Source: a virus
Length of the DNA stretch: 47,760 nt
Virus record (IMG/VR): IMGVR_UViG_3300006925_003412
Span: 1 to 47,760 of that record
Reading direction: 5' to 3' (one strand)
Part shown: in pieces, positions 4,560 to 43,898 of the stretch
How the letters are laid out: each line of letters starts with the position of its first letter
Numbering within the stretch: the stretch's first letter is position 1
The notes under the pieces: model-generated
Databases searched by the model: none
What the model saw: the letters and a program-made list of their open reading frames with translations, nothing else
What the model was told of the DNA's origin: nothing
Made by a program: the position numbers and the translations under genes

Positions 4560-4568
4560 ACTATTTAT
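4560..4568 (+). promoter_or_regulatory. Candidate late promoter element ACTATTTAT
   Basis: ACTATTTAT lies in the short gap upstream of the 4587 gene. The same octamer ACTATTTA recurs in the short leaders at 19468 and 43891, each 17-20 nt before the ATG of a structural-type gene. It might be recognised by the gp55-like sigma factor encoded at 33196. AT-rich octamers arise by chance in this genome, so support is weak. Confidence 0.3.
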
Positions 4569-11265: not shown

Positions 11266-13932
11266 GTGACTAAAAGATTATTGCAAGAAGGCCCGGTTGG
11301 GCATATGTGGCATCCATTTGATCTGGATTCAGTTAAGAATGGAAAAGATCTGTTATCAGTATTCGAGAACGAAGTGATAGAATATATTAATAAATTCACA
11401 CCGTCTATCAAGATAGATGGGATTAATGGGCCGATTCGATTAGTCACTAATAAGTCCGGAGACAGAGAGTTTGCTATTGACAGGATGTCTAGGGCTAATA
11501 TTGATCGTGAAGGAGTCACAGCAGATCGTTTAAAAGAGAGGTTTGAGAAGGCTATATTGCAATCTCTAGATTCTGATGAAGTTATGCAAATCCCTCTACA
11601 CAAATTAGTTGCTATGGGCGTCTCAATGGACAAGTTAACTGTTGGGACTAATTTAACAATCATCCACAAAAAGAAAAAGAAGCCCGTTGTCGTAAAGGGG
11701 ATTACCTCTGGACATGGTTTTGTAAATGATGGTACAGTTGCTTTAACTGTATTGAATAATGCACTTAGTGCTCAACCAACACAAATGGAACAAGTTCTAA
11801 GAGTGTTGGACATGTGGAATAACCCTGCAATATGTTTAAATAATGATATTGTGCATGAAAGTTCGAAAGATTCGGGGCAAGTAAATGCTGTAAAATATGA
11901 TGAAGATTTTATTGCGTTTCATGGACTCAATGAGATATTCAGCCCAGAAGGCAAGACTACTAGAAAAACTAAAGAAATAAATTTGAATGATCAGCAAAAG
12001 CAGGCATTAAATCAATTGGTTAAGATAATCAATGATACAAATACCGTACAAGGCTTTAGAGCGCTCTCTCCGTACGATACAGTCGCTTTAAAAGGTGAGA
12101 TAGACATTGACTATAGTAAAGTTCTAGCAGAGGTTATAGAGGTAAAATTGGACTCACAAACGTCTACTTCACAATCACTATCATCTTGGTTATCTGATTC
12201 TAAGATTGTAAAGCCTTCGTATAGTGTTAAGTATACATTTTCAGATGGAAAATCTAGATCTTGCTTCAGCAAGGCAAATTATGTTGCTTTAATTCCAGAT
12301 CAAGGAGAGCAGCAATACTCAATCAGAGAACTTCTGAGTGAAGAGGCACACCCTGAATTAGATGATGAGATTTATTACAACTTTGCATCTGGTGCAATAT
12401 TCTACCATGCAACTAGACTATTAGGAAGAGCAGTTCTTCAAACTTTAGTCAATAAGTCTAAAGTAGGAAATGATGCTCTCACTAGTCACGAAGGAGTTGT
12501 GATGCGCTCGAATGATGTATTTGGGGTTAATAATCCCATCAAGATCACAGGTGACTTCATCAGAGATGGAATGGGAAGTAATTTAGCACAGGCTATGACT
12601 AAAAAGCCTGCTGCAGTGAATGAGTCTACAGAACTTCAAGATACTCCAGAAGGTGAAATCGGAGATGAAGAAGGAGAGCAGACAATTGTAACTACCACGG
12701 GAACTAAAACTGTTGCTGTAATGCCGGGCTCTTTCAAGCCTCCCCACAAAGGACATCTTCTTATGGCGGAACATCTGTCTAAAGTTGCAGATGATGTCTT
12801 AATTTTTGTATCTGCTCCACGCGGTTCAAAAAGATTGCTACCATTTTCAGGTACTGAAATCACATATGATAAAGCCATAGAACTGTGGAGACTCATGCTC
12901 AGAGGCGCTTCTGGTAATATTAGATTAATAGAGACAACAAATCCTAGTCCCTCTCCTATCATGGCTCTAGCAGAAATAATGAAACCTGCTGATGAAAGAC
13001 AAAGTTATCAAGATGTTGATTTTTATCCCGAAGAATATTCTAAATATTATTTAGCAATGTCTGAAAAAGAAAAAGATGATCCGGGCTCAATGAAAAGATT
13101 TTCATTTTATGAAGATATGGAAAATGTAGAAATAACTTTAGTACCTGCTTTTAAACATGATCCTGAGTACTCTCAAGCAATTGCTGAGTTAATGACTAAG
13201 TCTGCTGATATTATTGAAAGAATTTCTGATGATATAAAAGCAAAGGCTTCAGAACTTGCTAAAGGACTTGTGTCCTCAAGAAAAAGAAAAAAATTATCTG
13301 CCAATGCTTCTGTAGAAGAATACATCTCTGCATTGTCCAAGGCTAATCAGAAAAAAGTTGCTAAGTTTATGAAATCAACACCAAAAGATTTAGATAAACA
13401 AAATTTTAGTGCAACCGATCTTAGACTTCTTTTGGATTTGAAAAAAGTTTATAACCTCCCAGTAGATTCACTTCTCGTAGACTTCGTAGGGCAAAACCTT
13501 GAAGACTATCTTCGCATCGTATTTGGTTCCGGAGAAGTGAATGAATCGATTAACGTAATTCAAGAAATGATTACATCGATCCTTGCGGAACAATTAGATG
13601 AAATGTCCACTATGGCTAGTGGGGCAGTAGCAGGTGGATCTAGCCCACTAGACGGTAACCGTGACGAAGAGGAAGAGGATGTGAACGAAGTCACATTCCA
13701 CCCTTCCGAACTTCCGCAGCAGCCCGGCTTGTCTTCTATGACTGTCAGAGTAATACCAAGTAGTAGACATAAGTCTAATAGTGGTAGCGATGCAATTGCA
13801 AAGAAAAGCATCAAAAACAAATTTAAAATTGATAGTACATATACCGACAAACGAGCCCCCTATTATAGTGAGGACGATATCATAACCGATTTGGTTGAGA
13901 AAGTCCTACACAATATTATACGTTTGAACTAA
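11266..13932 (+). CDS. Two-domain protein: ligase-like nucleotidyltransferase fused to a cytidylyltransferase
   Basis: A GTG start at 11266 is supported by AAAGGAG 7 nt upstream; 888 residues. The N-terminal part contains K49-I-D-G52, which looks like the KxDG adenylation motif of ATP-dependent ligases, followed by a strand-rich region (REFAIDRMSRANIDREGV). The second domain starts near residue 480: VAVMPGSFKPPHKGH holds H494-K-G-H497, the HxGH signature of cytidylyl/NMN adenylyltransferases, with the typical ADDVLIFVSAP strand next. The two are joined by an acidic linker with V451-N-E-S454, a possible prohead-protease site. A second V-N-E-S and a V-N-E-V occur in the C-terminal 140 residues. 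RNA or NAD repair and nucleotide-linked modification are possible roles; the ligase-like call is the less certain one. Confidence 0.8.
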   Translation: MTKRLLQEGPVGHMWHPFDLDSVKNGKDLLSVFENEVIEYINKFTPSIKIDGINGPIRLVTNKSGDREFAIDRMSRANIDREGVTADRLKERFEKAILQSLDSDEVMQIPLHKLVAMGVSMDKLTVGTNLTIIHKKKKKPVVVKGITSGHGFVNDGTVALTVLNNALSAQPTQMEQVLRVLDMWNNPAICLNNDIVHESSKDSGQVNAVKYDEDFIAFHGLNEIFSPEGKTTRKTKEINLNDQQKQALNQLVKIINDTNTVQGFRALSPYDTVALKGEIDIDYSKVLAEVIEVKLDSQTSTSQSLSSWLSDSKIVKPSYSVKYTFSDGKSRSCFSKANYVALIPDQGEQQYSIRELLSEEAHPELDDEIYYNFASGAIFYHATRLLGRAVLQTLVNKSKVGNDALTSHEGVVMRSNDVFGVNNPIKITGDFIRDGMGSNLAQAMTKKPAAVNESTELQDTPEGEIGDEEGEQTIVTTTGTKTVAVMPGSFKPPHKGHLLMAEHLSKVADDVLIFVSAPRGSKRLLPFSGTEITYDKAIELWRLMLRGASGNIRLIETTNPSPSPIMALAEIMKPADERQSYQDVDFYPEEYSKYYLAMSEKEKDDPGSMKRFSFYEDMENVEITLVPAFKHDPEYSQAIAELMTKSADIIERISDDIKAKASELAKGLVSSRKRKKLSANASVEEYISALSKANQKKVAKFMKSTPKDLDKQNFSATDLRLLLDLKKVYNLPVDSLLVDFVGQNLEDYLRIVFGSGEVNESINVIQEMITSILAEQLDEMSTMASGAVAGGSSPLDGNRDEEEEDVNEVTFHPSELPQQPGLSSMTVRVIPSSRHKSNSGSDAIAKKSIKNKFKIDSTYTDKRAPYYSEDDIITDLVEKVLHNIIRLN

Positions 13933-13944
13933 TTACTTTATTCA
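13917..13944 (-). promoter_or_regulatory. Minus-strand copy of the early/middle promoter element
   Basis: Read on the minus strand, this is TGAATAA, 10 nt, then TCAAACGTATA followed by ATA, identical in both blocks and spacing to five of the six plus-strand copies. It points leftwards, so a transcript from it would run antisense through the 3' part of the 11266-13932 gene. No convincing minus-strand gene lies ahead of it. Confidence 0.6.
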
Positions 13945-13963: not shown

Positions 13964-14851
13964 ATGAAAAGAGAAGATTTATTTGACAGTATCGAAAAGC
14001 AGATACTCGCTGAGAAGGTTTACCGTTCTCAAATCAAAAAGAGATTAGGCGAATTTAAAATTCTCCAAGAGTCGAAAAAGAAGAAGCAGGTGATTATCGA
14101 AAAGATATACAGAAAACACTTGAGAAACCAATTGCAATCTTTCATGGTGCTCTCAGAAGCGAAGAAGCAGGCATTTATCCACAAGACTACCGGTATGAAT
14201 GCACTAGAAGATCTTTTCTCTAATACCAACTTGTTAAGCGTTCTAGAGGGTGACTACAAGATTTTGACGACGTCGTATGAACAAAGGAAAGATTATAGAG
14301 AAAGAGTCATGGAACTAGTTCTGGATATCTTCGAGCAAGAAAGTATCGGAAAAGACGAGGATACCAAGAGTATCAATGAAGCAGTTAGCAGACTTTACGA
14401 AGAAGAAGAGCCAGACATCCAAATCACTGTCGATGATGATGATATTCCGGAAGATAAAGTAGTTGGGCCGAAACGGGATGAAATGGAAAAAGAGAAAGAA
14501 CAGGCTCGTGAAGATTCTGAAAATGCCAAGTCTATTGAAGGGAAAGAAGATGCTACTGGTGTACGACGTGCAGAATTAGCCTTTAAGAAGATCGAGAATA
14601 GCATTAGAAGCGCTTATGAGACACTAGGAAACCCTGCTGACAAAACAGAGTTCAAAAGGTTCTTGATCGCTAACCTGACTATGTATTTCAAGCAATTTGA
14701 AGATGGACTTTCAAATGAACCTCAAGCAGATATTCCTCAAGATGCTCAACAAGCAATTGAAGATGCTGAGGAGAAATTAGGTTCAACAGATGATGTCTCT
14801 GCTGATACTGAAGAAGAGATGGAAGTTGACTTAGGGGATTTGGAACTCTGA
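13964..14851 (+). CDS. Conserved phage virion/prohead-type protein
   Basis: The start is the ATG at 13964, 9 nt after GGAG (an in-frame TTG at 13949 is less likely); 295 residues. The first 70 residues contain two similar helical units: a basic helix ending ILQES, then one ending VLSEA. Next comes a conserved-looking domain (TTGMNALEDLFSNTNLLSVLEGDYKILTT). After an acidic stretch, a second helical block follows (FKKIENSIRSAYETLGN, then FLIANLTMYFKQFEDGL), which I recall from proteins near portal/protease genes in marine phages. The C-terminus is strongly acidic. Two hydrophobic-x-E-S/A sites at the domain boundary suggest proteolytic maturation. No enzyme motif is visible. Confidence 0.8.
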   Translation: MKREDLFDSIEKQILAEKVYRSQIKKRLGEFKILQESKKKKQVIIEKIYRKHLRNQLQSFMVLSEAKKQAFIHKTTGMNALEDLFSNTNLLSVLEGDYKILTTSYEQRKDYRERVMELVLDIFEQESIGKDEDTKSINEAVSRLYEEEEPDIQITVDDDDIPEDKVVGPKRDEMEKEKEQAREDSENAKSIEGKEDATGVRRAELAFKKIENSIRSAYETLGNPADKTEFKRFLIANLTMYFKQFEDGLSNEPQADIPQDAQQAIEDAEEKLGSTDDVSADTEEEMEVDLGDLEL

Positions 14852-14906
14852 TATATTAATATTATATATAATTATATATATTATATACTATTCTATTTAT
14901 ATTATT
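14852..14906. repeat. Extremely AT-rich intergenic segment with an 18-bp palindrome
   Basis: The gap is almost pure A/T. It contains a perfect 18-bp palindrome, TATATATAATTATATATA (14863-14880), and a CTATTTAT element at 14893-14900. It separates the late-type cluster from the early-type genes. It could be a promoter, a transcript end or an easily melted site; there is no GC-rich stem for a standard terminator. Confidence 0.5.
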
Positions 14907-15263
14907 ATGATTAATAAGAAAGAAGATAAAGAATTATATTATAAAAATTATTCTAAAATATCAGAATTAAAAAGTTTGAATAAAATTGATGATCAATTCG
15001 TATATTATATTGAGTCCTTATCATTAGAAGATATTATTTCTATTAAACTAGAAACTATCATTAGATCTTTAAACTTTAAATTTTTTAACTTTCCATTGTG
15101 GAAATCATTTCATAAGATTGTTTCTGAGGCTTTAGTTAATTCTATTATTGGTATTGCTTCTAATAATTCTGAGGCTTCTAGATTACTGGGTATCGATATG
15201 AATCAGTACAAAAGATGTCTTAAAGAATTTGGATATGAAATTAAAACTTGGGAGAGAGAATGA
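14907..15263 (+). CDS. Small protein with a Fis-like helix-turn-helix region
   Basis: The 118-residue product comes from an unusually AT-rich gene. The C-terminal part (EALVNSIIGIASNNSEASRLLGIDMNQYKRCLKEFG) matches the spacing of a Fis-type helix-turn-helix: a helix, a turn before A-x-x-L-G-I, then a recognition helix. A transcriptional role is therefore possible, but the resemblance is short. The N-terminus is rich in Lys, Tyr and Asn. No ribosome binding site precedes the ATG, so the true start may lie a little downstream. It overlaps the Cys-rich gene by 4 nt. Confidence 0.65.
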   Translation: MINKKEDKELYYKNYSKISELKSLNKIDDQFVYYIESLSLEDIISIKLETIIRSLNFKFFNFPLWKSFHKIVSEALVNSIIGIASNNSEASRLLGIDMNQYKRCLKEFGYEIKTWERE

Positions 15264-15490: not shown

Positions 15491-15518
15491 TGAATAACAA
15501 TTCTTTCTCAAACGTATA
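15491..15518 (+). promoter_or_regulatory. Promoter-like element 1 (upstream of uvsE)
   Basis: TGAATAA (15491-15497), 10 nt, TCAAACGTATA (15508-15518), followed by GAA. The TATAGA at its end is a reasonable -10 box, and TTGAAT lies in the -35 region. The uvsE ATG is 33 nt downstream. Confidence 0.7.
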
Positions 15519-16516: not shown

Positions 16517-16646
16517 ATGGAATACTGTTCTGAAGAAGATTCAGAATCTAAGATTCAATTATGCTGGAACAGAAGATAAGGCAATTATCGAAGATATGAT
16601 TCAGTATATAAAAATTTTAATGAAAAGATTAGAAAAAGATGAATAA
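16482..16646 (+). CDS. 54-residue ORF overlapping the end of uvsE
   Basis: A short gene in another frame starts at ATG 16482, preceded by GGAG 4-5 nt upstream, inside the last 35 nt of uvsE, and ends at TAA 16644-16646. The product is basic and helical (WLKWNTVLKKIQNLRF, then IQYIKILMKRLEKDE). It fills almost the entire gap between uvsE and the lipoprotein genes, and its stop overlaps the next promoter-like element. No family is recognised. Confidence 0.6.
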   Translation: MVNKQNQKLWLKWNTVLKKIQNLRFNYAGTEDKAIIEDMIQYIKILMKRLEKDE

Positions 16647-16667
16647 AATCATCTACTCAAACGTATA
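16640..16667 (+). promoter_or_regulatory. Promoter-like element 2 (upstream of the lipoprotein pair)
   Basis: TGAATAA (16640-16646), 10 nt, TCAAACGTATA (16657-16667) followed by ATAATA, giving a perfect TATAAT -10 box at 16664-16669. The first lipoprotein ATG is at 16689, with AAAGGAG between. Confidence 0.72.
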
Positions 16668-17495: not shown

Positions 17496-18299
17496 ATGAA
17501 AGAAATAATCTTGTTCGACATGGATGGTACGCTGACTCCTGCTAGACAGAAAATGGATATCAACATGGAGATGCGTCTTCATGAAGCGCAGCGAAAAGGA
17601 TTTGATATAGGAATCATTACAGGTTCAGATATGAATTATGTCCGTCATCAATGTTCTAGATTATTTGATTTAAGCCTCGTAGATTCCTCTAGGATTCATT
17701 TTCTACCTTGCAATGGTACAAAGTACCTCTTGAACGATAAAATGGTTTACGAGCGAAATATGAGGGAATATATGGGTGAAACACTTTGGAACAGATTGAT
17801 GATCTTGTTAATAGAATTACAAAAAGATTTAGTCTTAGAGCACGATATACCCCTTACAGGGCATTTTTTTGATTACAGGGGTAGTACACTCAATTGGTGC
17901 CCTATAGGTAGAAATGCTGAAGAGAAAGATAGGAGCAAATGGGAAAGAATGGATTTTGATTATAAAATCAGAAAACCGTTTTTGAAACAACTCAAGACAT
18001 TGGTACACACACAGTGTTCTAATTTAGGAGATCTTTCGTCATCTGATGTTGAATTGAGTGTAAAATATGGTGGAGATACTTCATTTGATATATTTCCATT
18101 AGGATGGGACAAGACTTATCCATTAGAAAATACAGACATATTCCATGATTATAGTAAGATATACTTCGTAGGAGATCGTTGTGAACAAGACGGAAACGAT
18201 TATGAGATATATGAGCACTCAAAGATAACTGGATTTAAAACAACTTCTCCAGATGAAACTATAAAAATTATGAATAAAATCCTATACTCAAACGTATAA
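17496..18299 (+). CDS. Phosphomannomutase, eukaryotic PMM type (HAD superfamily)
   Basis: The product interconverts mannose-6-phosphate and mannose-1-phosphate. The 267-residue protein follows the eukaryotic PMM pattern: catalytic DMDGTLTPARQ near residue 8, IITGSDMNY, LPCNGTKY, the substrate-binding STLNWCPIGRNA (compare LNVSPIGR), KYGGDTSFDIFPLGWDKTY and VGDRCEQDGNDYEIYE. This is a different family from bacterial ManB-type PMMs. ATG 17496 is preferred over the GTG at 17487 because AAAAGGTGAG lies just before it. It supplies the first step for the GDP-mannose genes 10 kb downstream. Its last codons (YSNV-stop) double as promoter-like element 3. Confidence 0.93.
   Translation: MKEIILFDMDGTLTPARQKMDINMEMRLHEAQRKGFDIGIITGSDMNYVRHQCSRLFDLSLVDSSRIHFLPCNGTKYLLNDKMVYERNMREYMGETLWNRLMILLIELQKDLVLEHDIPLTGHFFDYRGSTLNWCPIGRNAEEKDRSKWERMDFDYKIRKPFLKQLKTLVHTQCSNLGDLSSSDVELSVKYGGDTSFDIFPLGWDKTYPLENTDIFHDYSKIYFVGDRCEQDGNDYEIYEHSKITGFKTTSPDETIKIMNKILYSNV
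18271..18298 (+). promoter_or_regulatory. Promoter-like element 3 (upstream of tRNA-Arg)
   Basis: TGAATAA (18271-18277), 10 nt, TCAAACGTATA (18288-18298), then ATAA. The TATAAT box at 18295-18300 puts the expected start of transcription about 7 nt later, at or next to the tRNA 5' end (18309). The element is entirely within the end of the phosphomannomutase gene. Confidence 0.72.
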
Positions 18300-18308
18300 T
18301 AAGTACGA

Positions 18309-18384
18309 GCACTTGTAGCACAATGGATAGTGCAACTGCCTTCTAAGCAGTAGGTTGCTAGTTCGAGTCTAGCCAAGTGTACCA
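18309..18384 (+). tRNA. tRNA-Arg (UCU), CCA encoded
   Basis: A complete 76-nt cloverleaf can be drawn. The acceptor stem is GCACTTG/CAAGTGT (one G-U pair). The D-arm is GCAC/GTGC, and the anticodon stem is ACTGC/GCAGT around the loop CTTCTAA. The T-arm is GCTAG/CTAGC with TTCGAGT. Discriminator A and an encoded CCA end the gene. Anticodon UCU reads AGA, a codon used very often in these phage genes, so the tRNA probably supplements the host supply. A promoter-like element sits directly upstream. Confidence 0.96.
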
Positions 18385-19467: not shown

Positions 19468-19476
19468 ACTATTTAT
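19468..19476 (+). promoter_or_regulatory. Candidate late promoter element ACTATTTAT
   Basis: ACTATTTAT lies between the terminator and the ATG at 19497, 20 nt upstream of that ATG. After a strong terminator the next gene needs a promoter, and this is the element shared with the 4560 and 43891 leaders. Confidence 0.35.
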
Positions 19477-22864: not shown

Positions 22865-22892
22865 TGAATAAACCTTTACATTCAAACGTATA
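22865..22892 (+). promoter_or_regulatory. Promoter-like element 4 (upstream of the 22916 gene)
   Basis: TGAATAA (22865-22871), 10 nt, TCAAACGTATA (22882-22892), then GATAATA. The GTG start of the next gene is 24 nt downstream with GGAGG in between. Confidence 0.72.
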
Positions 22893-23847: not shown

Positions 23848-24183
23848 ATGAAAGAAATCAAAATCGATAAAATAGAGAATGATGAACAATTGATTGTTAG
23901 TGTTGAATTGCCGGCTAGAAGATACGCCAATGATCCAGTACAGCAGTTTTCCAATTCTGAACTAAATCAATACTTGAAAGAGCAAGGCATAACACTTTCA
24001 GAATATGAATTGCAGAGTCGAACGAATGAACATTTGACTTCTTATTCGACAAAAGGATTAAAGCCTACCCTAGAAGGTACTTGGGTATTCAATAAGATTG
24101 ATAAAGTTGAAGAAAAAGTGAATAAACCTAGCACTCAAACGTATAAGAAAAGAAGAACAAAAAAATCAAAATCGGGGGATTAA
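23848..24183 (+). CDS. Small protein of unknown function with basic tail
   Basis: The 111-residue product starts after AAGGAG. It is charged throughout. The last 25 residues contain STQTYKKRRTKKSKSGD, where TCAAACGTATA of promoter-like element 5 is translated as part of TQTYK, so the tail composition may be dictated partly by that element. The middle (LNQYLKEQGITLSEYELQ) looks helical. No family is recognised. It overlaps the nuclease gene by 1 nt. Confidence 0.75.
   Translation: MKEIKIDKIENDEQLIVSVELPARRYANDPVQQFSNSELNQYLKEQGITLSEYELQSRTNEHLTSYSTKGLKPTLEGTWVFNKIDKVEEKVNKPSTQTYKKRRTKKSKSGD
24119..24145 (+). promoter_or_regulatory. Promoter-like element 5 (inside the 23848 gene, upstream of the nuclease)
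   Basis: TGAATAA (24119-24125), 9 nt, TCAAACGTATA (24135-24145), then AGAA. This is the only copy with 9 rather than 10 nt between blocks and the only + strand copy entirely within coding sequence away from a stop. The nuclease ATG is 37 nt downstream. Confidence 0.6.
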
Positions 24184-24962
24184 TGACTAACAAATATATT
24201 TCTTTTTCACAACTTAAAAACTGGGCTAAATGCCCTTTCTATCACAAACTATCAAATATTGACAAGGTAGATGGCTCTTTTTCTGGAAACATTTATACCG
24301 CTTTTGGCTCTGCTGTGCATGAGACGATTGAAAAGCACTTAGAGAATGAGATAGATGAGCAAGGACTTAGAGAGTACTTTGGTTCTGCCTTTGAGAAAGA
24401 AAGAAGCCTATTGTCCGAAGAGATTAAAGACAGCCATTTTGGTGAATTTAGGACTCAAGGAGAAAACTTGGTAGAGAAATATAAAGCCAAACTCGATTCT
24501 TACTTTGGTAAAGATTACGAGATTGTAAAATGCGAAGAGGATATCTTCGAAGATATACCAGAATATAAAGGAACCCCTTTTAAGTTTAAGGGTTTCATTG
24601 ACTTGATTGTCAAGAAAGGCAACACTTATCACATATTAGATTGGAAAACTTGCTCTTGGGGCTGGGACGCTAAAAGAAAGTCTGATAAGATGGTTGTCTA
24701 CCAATTGATTTTTTATAAGCATTATTATGCGATTAAACATGGCATCGATCCAAAGAATATCGAATGCCATTTTGGGCTCTTGAAAAGGACTGCAAAGTCT
24801 AATGAAGTAGAGTTATTCAAAGTTACTTCTGGAAAGAGAAGAACAGAGAATGCTATGGAATTATTAGTAAGAGCCCTTCACAATATCGATAATCGTGTTT
24901 ATATTAAGAATAGACTCTCTTGTGCTTATTGTGAGTTCAAGGGTACTGAACACTGTCCGTAA
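24183..24962 (+). CDS. PD-(D/E)XK nuclease with probable 4Fe-4S cluster (Cas4/RecB-like)
   Basis: The 259-residue product has the Cas4/AddB-type layout. SFSQLKNWAKCPF carries Cys17, and AFGSAVHETIEKH carries His46. GFIDLIV supplies an Asp, and ILDWKT supplies the D-x-K core of the nuclease site. The C-terminal CAYCEFKGTEHC gives Cys247, Cys250 and Cys258, which with Cys17 form the usual four-Cys iron-sulfur site. YQLIFYKHYY resembles the conserved Q-x-x-x-Y helix. It is a 5'-3' or structure-specific nuclease in other systems; here a role in phage recombination, host DNA breakdown or repair is likely. GGGGGAT precedes the ATG. Confidence 0.9.
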   Translation: MTNKYISFSQLKNWAKCPFYHKLSNIDKVDGSFSGNIYTAFGSAVHETIEKHLENEIDEQGLREYFGSAFEKERSLLSEEIKDSHFGEFRTQGENLVEKYKAKLDSYFGKDYEIVKCEEDIFEDIPEYKGTPFKFKGFIDLIVKKGNTYHILDWKTCSWGWDAKRKSDKMVVYQLIFYKHYYAIKHGIDPKNIECHFGLLKRTAKSNEVELFKVTSGKRRTENAMELLVRALHNIDNRVYIKNRLSCAYCEFKGTEHCP

Positions 24963-31961: not shown

Positions 31962-32413
31962 AAATTATATCACACAGGGCATACGTAAACGGAGAGGATC
32001 CAGATATCGAAAACCATCCAGTAGCGATTCAAGCATTGTTGGATTCTGGATTGCATGTTGAGATAGATGTTTGGTATATAGATGGAAATTATTTATTAGG
32101 GCATGACAGTCCCAAATATCAAATTCAAGAGTCTTTTCTCAAGCAAGAAGGGCTTTGGTGCCATGCCAAAAACAAGTACGCTCTAGAGCAAATGCTGGCT
32201 TCTGAAGTGCATTGTTTTTGGCACCAACAAGACGATTATACTATAACTTCTAGAGGATATATTTGGGCTTACCCTAGTAAGGAAACGAGCGGAAACAATA
32301 CCGTTTTGTTATTTCCAGAAAGACACCCAGAAATAGAATATTCAAAGTATGATTTCATATGCACAGATTATGTTAATAAATTTTTGAATAAAACTAGTAT
32401 CTCAAACGTATAA
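31958..32413 (+). CDS. GDPD-like phosphodiesterase domain protein
   Basis: The GTG at 31958 overlaps the previous stop; 151 residues. It opens IISHRAYVNGEDPDIENHP (compare HRG...ENT), then LHVEIDVWYIDGNYLLGHD, where Glu/Asp of E-I-D and His of G-H-D match the metal and catalytic residues of glycerophosphodiester phosphodiesterases. The domain is half the usual size. I recall similar short GDPD-like proteins beside glycosyltransferases in phage and bacterial genomes. The C-terminal ISNV is encoded by promoter-like element 6. Substrate may be a lipid- or sugar-linked phosphodiester. Confidence 0.75.
   Translation: MKIISHRAYVNGEDPDIENHPVAIQALLDSGLHVEIDVWYIDGNYLLGHDSPKYQIQESFLKQEGLWCHAKNKYALEQMLASEVHCFWHQQDDYTITSRGYIWAYPSKETSGNNTVLLFPERHPEIEYSKYDFICTDYVNKFLNKTSISNV
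32385..32412 (+). promoter_or_regulatory. Promoter-like element 6 (upstream of the 32435 gene)
   Basis: TGAATAA (32385-32391), 10 nt, TCAAACGTATA (32402-32412), then ATAA, giving TATAAT. It overlaps the stop of the GDPD-like gene; the next ATG is 23 nt downstream with AAGGAG between. This unit includes the sigma factor. Confidence 0.72.
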
Positions 32414-32910: not shown

Positions 32911-33218
32911 TTTTATATTTTATATTGACAATTTCAATTCTTGTTAATGGTTTTTTGGGGTGGTATATTTATAAACTTTTGAGAAATTTGATCTCCATGG
33001 AAGATGATTTTATGGAAATGAGATCTAAATTGCTTGAATTTGCCACTCATCTAAGGGCTATAAACAAAGTCGAATCCTTTTACGGAGATCCAACCATCAC
33101 ATCCTTAGTTGAGCACATGAAAAGACTAGCAGGAGAAATAGAAAACTATTCTCAAGTTATGGTTGTGTTCGAAGACGATCTACAGGAGGATACAGATGGC
33201 GAAGAAACGGAAGCCTAG
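32907..33218 (+). CDS. Small membrane-anchored protein
   Basis: The 103-residue product starts with a membrane segment (ILYFILTISILVNGFLGWYIY, residues ~2-22), followed by a cytoplasmic helical region (KLLRNLISMEDDFMEMRS) and SFYGDPTITSLVEHMKRL, a block I recall as conserved in marine phages. It ends very acidic. Overlaps the FmdB-like gene by 4 nt and the sigma factor gene by 23 nt. Function unknown. Confidence 0.8.
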   Translation: MILYFILTISILVNGFLGWYIYKLLRNLISMEDDFMEMRSKLLEFATHLRAINKVESFYGDPTITSLVEHMKRLAGEIENYSQVMVVFEDDLQEDTDGEETEA

Positions 33219-33885
33219 GACAAAAAGAATGTACTTTACCAAGGTACATGAAAATGCGATTATTGAATTTAATAATCCAGATACACCATTAAGCAAGAAA
33301 TCAGAACTTTACGAAAAACTGATCCATCCTGCATTAGATGAAATGGTTGACAAGATTGTATATACATATAAGTTTACATCATTGCCAAATATTTCTGAAT
33401 TGCAGCAAGACTGTAAAGTAATGCTTGTGACTATATTACACAAGTTTAAGCCAGAGAAAGGGCACAAAGCCTTTTCTTATTTTTCAGTAATTACAAAGAA
33501 TTGGTTTATCGCACAAGTCAAGAAAAACAAGAAGAAAAACCAGAGAGAAACCTCTCTAGAGAGACAAATCGAGGCTGGATTTGAACCCGGAAGAGAAGAT
33601 ACGTATCATGAAGATAGAGAGCGTGAAGAATTCATGAAACTTTTAAAAGAAGAGATTGCTTCTTGGGAGTCTATAACGATGCGCCCGAATGAAAGAAAGG
33701 TGTACGATGCAATTAATACATTAATAGATAACGCTGATAAGATTGAAATATTTAACAAAAAGGCTATTTACTTATACTTAAGAGAGATCACAGGCTTGAA
33801 CACTAAACAAATAGTTGTGCAGTTATCCAAGATGAGACAAAAATACTCTGATTTCAAAGAAAGGTATGATAATGGTGAAGAATAA
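33196..33885 (+). CDS. Late sigma factor, T4 gp55-like
   Basis: An earlier in-frame start exists at 33163, but the ATG at 33196 has CAGGAGG 8 nt upstream and is used; 229 residues. Residues ~45-115 match sigma region 2 as in T4 gp55: HPALDEMVDKIVYTYKF, ELQQDCKVMLVTILHKF, FSYFSVITKNWFIAQVKKNK. A sigma-70 region 4 is lacking, as in gp55. In T4 this protein, with gp33 and the sliding clamp gp45, directs host RNA polymerase to late promoters; those partners are not in the window. The last ~80 residues are helical. Placed after promoter-like element 6, so probably made before late transcription. Confidence 0.88.
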   Translation: MAKKRKPRTKRMYFTKVHENAIIEFNNPDTPLSKKSELYEKLIHPALDEMVDKIVYTYKFTSLPNISELQQDCKVMLVTILHKFKPEKGHKAFSYFSVITKNWFIAQVKKNKKKNQRETSLERQIEAGFEPGREDTYHEDREREEFMKLLKEEIASWESITMRPNERKVYDAINTLIDNADKIEIFNKKAIYLYLREITGLNTKQIVVQLSKMRQKYSDFKERYDNGEE

Positions 33886-43890: not shown

Positions 43891-43898
43891 ACTATTTA
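43891..43898 (+). promoter_or_regulatory. Candidate late promoter element ACTATTTA
   Basis: ACTATTTA lies in the 29-nt gap before the gp25-like gene, 17 nt upstream of its ATG, with TTTGAGG between. Third intergenic occurrence of this octamer ahead of a structural-type gene. Confidence 0.3.

Follow-up and report, generated by a model that had tools for sequence, protein, structure and literature searches.

A predicted ECF-type promoter, inverted at a gene junction and overlapping a putative late promoter, in an undescribed phage group

The whole 47,760-nt stretch of DNA from an uncultured phage analysed here (the window) contains a junction at which two rightward genes, 11266-13932 and 13964-14851, are separated by a gap of 31 nt with an inverted promoter-like element (Table 1). 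The left-hand gene encodes an 888-aa protein that matches the Pfam family CTP_transf_like and, at its cut-off, TIGR00125; a PDB profile match to phosphopantetheine adenylyltransferase was also obtained (E=8e-4). By eye, the N-terminus carries GHMWHPFD and KIDG, a ligase-like KxDG motif. Members of this protein family occur in several uncultured viruses, and DNA and protein searches of named phages with the region gave no match. The structure prediction had a pLDDT of 43 and was not taken to a fold search. On these signatures the gene appears adenylyltransferase-like and is not evidently structural. Several proteins encoded between 112 and 14851 of the window, and at L084 2178-3118, have common short N-termini, such as MKMKLIMExF, MKKLFENWNKFIKE and LLxEG, that recall capsid-targeting peptides, and the products of the block may include internal head proteins. 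A hairpin-like CCCCTATATACTAATAGGGG at 2785-2812, directly before gene 2814 and over its ribosome site, is a possible translational control element or terminator. The gap that follows the 295-aa gene (14852-14906) is almost pure A+T, with 3/60 G+C, the minimum of the window. Its position but not its sequence is kept in four genomes (2-5/60 G+C; CTATTTA in three), and it is possibly an unwinding element or a late promoter.

Table 1. Features at and around the junction, with other promoter elements and the late sigma gene of the window
Feature	Position	Strand	Basis or context
Gene, 888 aa; predicted target of leftward antisense RNA	11266..13932	+	HxGH adenylyltransferase motif, residues ~480-525
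Inverted ECF-type promoter, predicted	13917..13944	-	Exact class match, weight-matrix score, conservation
-35-like TGAATAA of inverted element	13938-13944	-	
10-nt spacer, then TCAAA, between -35-like and -10-like parts of inverted element		-	
-10-like CGTATA of inverted element	13917-13922	-	
ACTAATTA, form of late-promoter core ACTANTTA	13928..13935	+	Inside spacer of inverted element
Gene, 295 aa, charged; predicted to be read from overlapped late promoter	13964..14851	+	ORF with GGAG ribosome site
Forward ECF-type element	15491..15518	+	32 nt before gene 15551
Forward ECF-type element	16640..16667	+	21 nt before gene 16689
Forward ECF-type element	18271..18298	+	10 nt before tRNA-Arg 18309-18384
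Forward ECF-type element	22865..22892	+	23 nt before gene 22916
Forward ECF-type element, 9-nt spacer	24119..24145	+	37 nt before gene 24183
Forward ECF-type element	32385..32412	+	22 nt before gene 32435
Late-promoter core ACTATTTA	4560..4567	+	Upstream of gene 4575; kept in relatives
Late-promoter core ACTATTTA	19468..19475	+	Upstream of gene 19497; kept in relatives
Late-promoter core ACTATTTA	43891..43898	+	Upstream of gene 43916; kept in G012, flanks diverged
T4 gp55-like late sigma gene	33163..33885	+	phrog_234 late sigma transcription factor, E=2e-7

The reverse complement of 13917-13944, read directly, is TGAATAA, AGTAATTAGT, TCAAACGTATA, then ATA, just as the initial annotation of this DNA had described it. 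The count given there, a seventh copy and the one on the minus strand, also holds: the window contains seven exact copies of the TGAATAA-N10-TCAAACGTATA type (9- or 10-nt spacers), six on the plus strand and one on the minus strand, and 100 shuffles of the window contain none. The inverted copy has a weight-matrix score of 35.4, equal to the median of the forward copies (35.4), and looks like a full-strength promoter. Its identity as a promoter is well supported by sequence, and the leftward start would be expected at ~13908-13911.

The class to which the element belongs was followed through IMG/VR, where a scan for the exact element gave 47 stretches. By weight matrix (score threshold 20), overlapping records of the same virus or a near-identical strain contain at least 60 distinct forward copies and 1 reverse copy, and 16 records together contain 128 forward and 4 reverse copies; 442 kb of triplet-shuffled sequence gave no match at a score of 10 or more. 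Three records extend the window: G003 (9 mismatches in 19,534 bases), G010 (11 in 28,364) and G019 (98.8% identical). The four reverse copies come from four genomes, each at this same junction, and no further reverse copy was found across the records. A ribosome site and start codon follow 101 of 107 forward elements within 150 nt (median 30 nt). In a logo of the 128 copies, whose selection with at most two mismatches biases it towards high conservation, GAATA and CGTAT are invariant or nearly so, TCAAA is conserved and the spacing is 16 nt; A-tracts 5' of the element resemble UP elements. The class, TGAATA-N16-CGTATA, has the GAA core in the -35, the -10 starting with CGT and the ~16-nt spacing of ECF promoters and, by sequence, matches promoters of ECF sigmas. 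A weak element (score 17-21) lies at 14977-15004 within gene 14907-15263 in 4/4 genomes; coding conservation may explain it, or it may act as a promoter of low strength. Copies in distant relatives (24-33% identity) did not rise above a reversed-pattern control. Bacterial genomes totalling 257 billion bases held 15 single copies, in unrelated bacteria, which by our own estimate is about the chance level, and therefore no host is assigned.

A candidate cognate sigma is encoded at 23597-24232 of contig G003 (= L084 1333-1968), which overlaps the window. The protein, ~191 aa with region 2 and region 4, matches TIGR02937 (E=2.9e-15), and its best PDB relative is sigma-W (E=5e-7). Its gene lies 3' of a forward element at G003:23320 and is followed by a strong terminator (G003:24301-24321) and a late-type core at 24401; a sigma-70-like TATAAT site lies just upstream of it, and its codon style is apparently more G+C-rich than the surroundings. 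A close-relative scan of viral contigs returned no other relative of this sigma, which was found in one contig, the other contigs stopping short of that locus. By family resemblance, we infer that it reads the element class. Promoters of B. subtilis sigma-W, TGAAAC-N16/17-CGTA (PMC2375139), have a near-identical layout and -10, and among solved structures sigma-W is the nearest to the phage protein; the phage elements differ in their -35, TGAATAA, in the extra conserved TCAAA before CGTATA, and in their location in a phage genome. The ECF-like sigma SaPh711_gp47 of phage 7-11 has measured promoters, GTAAtg-(16)-aCTA, from which late genes are transcribed at eight sites (PMC8948821). A bipartite promoter, the 16-nt spacing and a phage-encoded sigma are common to both systems, but the consensus is another one, and whereas in phage 7-11 the element drives late genes from eight sites, ~60 copies lie here mostly in early-type regions and there is a separate gp55-like sigma. 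The product of that second sigma gene (33163-33885) has a weak match to sigma-70 region 2. If the phage's own ECF sigma drives the class, its expression is probably delayed-early or middle, and is better called so unless the ECF sigma is carried in the virion.

The plus strand of the inverted element's spacer reads ACTAATTA, 28 nt upstream of ATG 13964 and identical in four genomes, a feature that the initial annotation had overlooked. Motif discovery upstream of late-type genes, with the junction site excluded, gave ACTATTTA, only moderately above shuffles; 36 of its 59 distinct copies are found 9-45 nt before a start (baseline 4%, p ~2e-35). Position 5 is also A (11/29 near starts) or C (8/16), and with most other single changes the near-start rate drops towards background. 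The class ACTANTTA has a strand bias of 114:16, and 57 of the 114 copies are 9-45 nt upstream of starts (baseline 4%). For ACTAATTA, leaving out the junction copies, the figure is 8 of 26 (p=5e-6). Flanks diverge while the core stays, for example between window 43891 and G012 45320. ACTANTTA thus has the form of a gp55-type promoter, a short core in a fixed range upstream of late genes and on the coding strand. As in T4, a gp55-like sigma goes with a single short late core near gene starts; the core is TATAAATA in T4 and ACTANTTA here, and the T4 motif is not enriched in the window (4 copies against 5 expected, three of them on the minus strand). Since the other strand of the spacer is a late core, two promoters for two sigmas appear to overlap back to back at the junction. 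A collection scan for the combined ECF and late-core pattern found this junction only, in four contigs. Of 132 distinct elements, the others with an opposite-strand late core are those of G019 and G005, at what appears to be a single orthologous position; the core there extends into the TTATTCA part of the element, an overlap that can be chance. The element, its class and conservation, its overlap with the late core and the two sigma genes are all read from the sequence; the sigma-element pairing, the start sites, the timing and the repressive purpose are predictions.

The 295-aa gene to the right has no family match and no forward ECF-type element upstream; it does have the late core, and the late-type block therefore runs to 14851 or beyond. 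The site had been placed exactly at the border between late-type and early-type blocks, a placement that has to be given up, the first strong forward element being at 15491.

Near-identical records aside, the junction is present in the window, G009, G012 and G024, and the check proposed at the outset, whether related genomes keep the inverted copy, gave a positive answer: it is at the same place in 4/4. Its spacer is identical in all of them, and G009 has one substitution in TCAAA. G024 is the most distant genome with the reverse copy (72% DNA identity over 18.8 kb); in its alignment with the window, the site forms an unbroken stretch of 29 identical nt that ranks 11th among 3,518 such runs and is bordered by differences immediately to its left and right. 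Neighbouring forward copies have drifted more than the inverted copy in core and spacer. Conserved synonymous codons make up 10/17 between a minus-strand ORF and the gene end, against 29% in the rest of the gene. Because the four genomes form a single clade, their conservation does not represent four independent events; the I-R-L-N codons and the stop codon of the overlapping gene may also account for some of it. At the junction of a more distant relative, G033, neither promoter was found, so that this gene order can exist without the two-promoter device. No inverted copy was seen in the other large late block of the records examined, and the arrangement is thus not a general rule for late blocks.

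With a promoter that looks full-strength and no convincing gene on the minus strand, antisense RNA is the natural product, and the leftward RNA is most likely antisense to the 3' end of the 888-aa gene. A convincing minus-strand terminator that would fix its end was not found, and Rfam gave only the tRNA near the site. The proposal of an early antisense RNA against a late gene accordingly needs qualification: the antisense part is favoured by the full-strength score and the conservation, and the overlap with the 3' end of 11266-13932 stands, but "early" becomes probably delayed-early or middle for an ECF-class promoter, and the target, with its adenylyltransferase signatures, is not obviously structural.

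We regard as moderately probable an arrangement of back-to-back promoters for two phase-specific sigmas on the same ~30 bp, in which ECF transcription would mask the late promoter and direct antisense RNA leftward. The ECF-type promoter would probably be read by host RNA polymerase with the phage ECF sigma, giving an RNA that begins near 13909 and is antisense to the 3' part of the 888-aa gene, perhaps also to genes further left, and the gp55-type promoter ACTAATTA, wholly within the ECF spacer, would serve gene 13964-14851 rightward. While the ECF sigma is dominant, polymerase on the site would cover the late core, and antisense RNA, possibly with opposing polymerases, would enter the late operon from its 3' end. 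Once the late sigma takes over, the direction would flip, and the same DNA would fire rightward into gene 13964-14851. The starts would point apart, so the two transcripts themselves would not collide; interference would consist of the shared footprint at the site together with antisense RNA or head-on polymerases in the late operon. Occlusion of the late promoter is as likely as antisense RNA. A two-sigma switch, in which the 28-bp site would be held by one sigma at a time, with antisense transcription early and sense transcription outward late, is offered tentatively, its chances being put somewhat below even.

Overlap with the late promoter could instead be incidental in a crowded 31-nt gap, the leftward promoter acting only through its antisense RNA by duplex formation, degradation or a translation block. 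The strong promoter score, the lack of a convincing minus-strand gene and the precedent in phage PAK_P3 agree with this, but the late core fits entirely within the spacer and does not vary in 4/4 genomes, whereas the spacers of forward copies nearby have drifted; the chance of such an overlap would be small, and there is no conserved terminator or known RNA family to mark a discrete small RNA. We consider it rather unlikely. A leftward mRNA is improbable, although the earlier judgement that the minus strand has no believable gene was right only in that nothing convincing is coded there: an ORF of 96 codons, open in four genomes, does exist. It runs from TTG 13850 down to 13560 and would specify a small hydrophobic protein (83-101 aa) overprinted on the 888-aa gene. 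The frame, the TTG and an AGGGGG ribosome site at 5-nt spacing are present in 4/4 genomes, the codons GCC CCC under that site are unchanged in the four, and a synonymous shuffle gave p=0.008-0.08 per genome for the open length. Yet wobble positions coincide in this phase, where frames of such length are common, so that the ORF would be weak evidence for a gene; elsewhere in the gene a 119-column frame in the same phase is open in all four. Its region has no extra synonymous constraint (25% vs 29%), its start is 66 nt from the promoter against a forward median of 30, and length (83-101 codons) and sequence vary between genomes.

Two further readings have still less in their favour. Transcripts from middle promoters prime replication at some T4 origins, and the one reversed promoter of a genome otherwise read in one direction, with an AT-rich gap (3/60 G+C) kept in place in 4/4 genomes ~0.9 kb to the right, would suit a leftward replication primer; that gap, however, is behind the promoter and not in front of it, and the site has no clear change in strand skew, which leaves priming very doubtful. 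That only one copy is reversed might suggest a remnant of a rearrangement, as the initial annotation allowed, or a chance copy without function. Such an origin is disfavoured to the point of being highly improbable: the copy has a full promoter score, persists in four genomes and has changed less than the adjacent forward copies, whose cores and spacers differ.

Antisense transcription in phages has precedents. In Pseudomonas phage PAK_P3, RNA-seq detected 20 asRNAs, early and over structural genes (PMC4933390). The likeness is early-phase transcription opposite late genes, proposed to hold them down; the difference is that 20 asRNAs were measured there, whereas here one site is known from sequence alone, with a defined ECF-type promoter class that overlaps a late promoter. 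The CfrI antisense RNA of cyanophage S-PM2, ~225 nt, is likewise a cis antisense RNA in a T4-like phage; it is antisense to an endonuclease gene and psbA, and the part of the account drawn on here makes no mention of overlap with a late promoter (PMC2984593).

Two promoter classes are now defined for an undescribed phage group. Antisense control was proposed from the RNA-seq of PAK_P3 without a defined promoter logic, and the present site, as read from sequence, would supply one through its overlapping ECF-type and late promoters. A single conserved site that can be mutated, with both sigma genes identified, makes the idea directly testable in vitro. Phages must silence their late genes until replication is under way, and the inverted copy, if the proposed reading is true, would give a phage a concrete means of holding late genes quiet early in infection.
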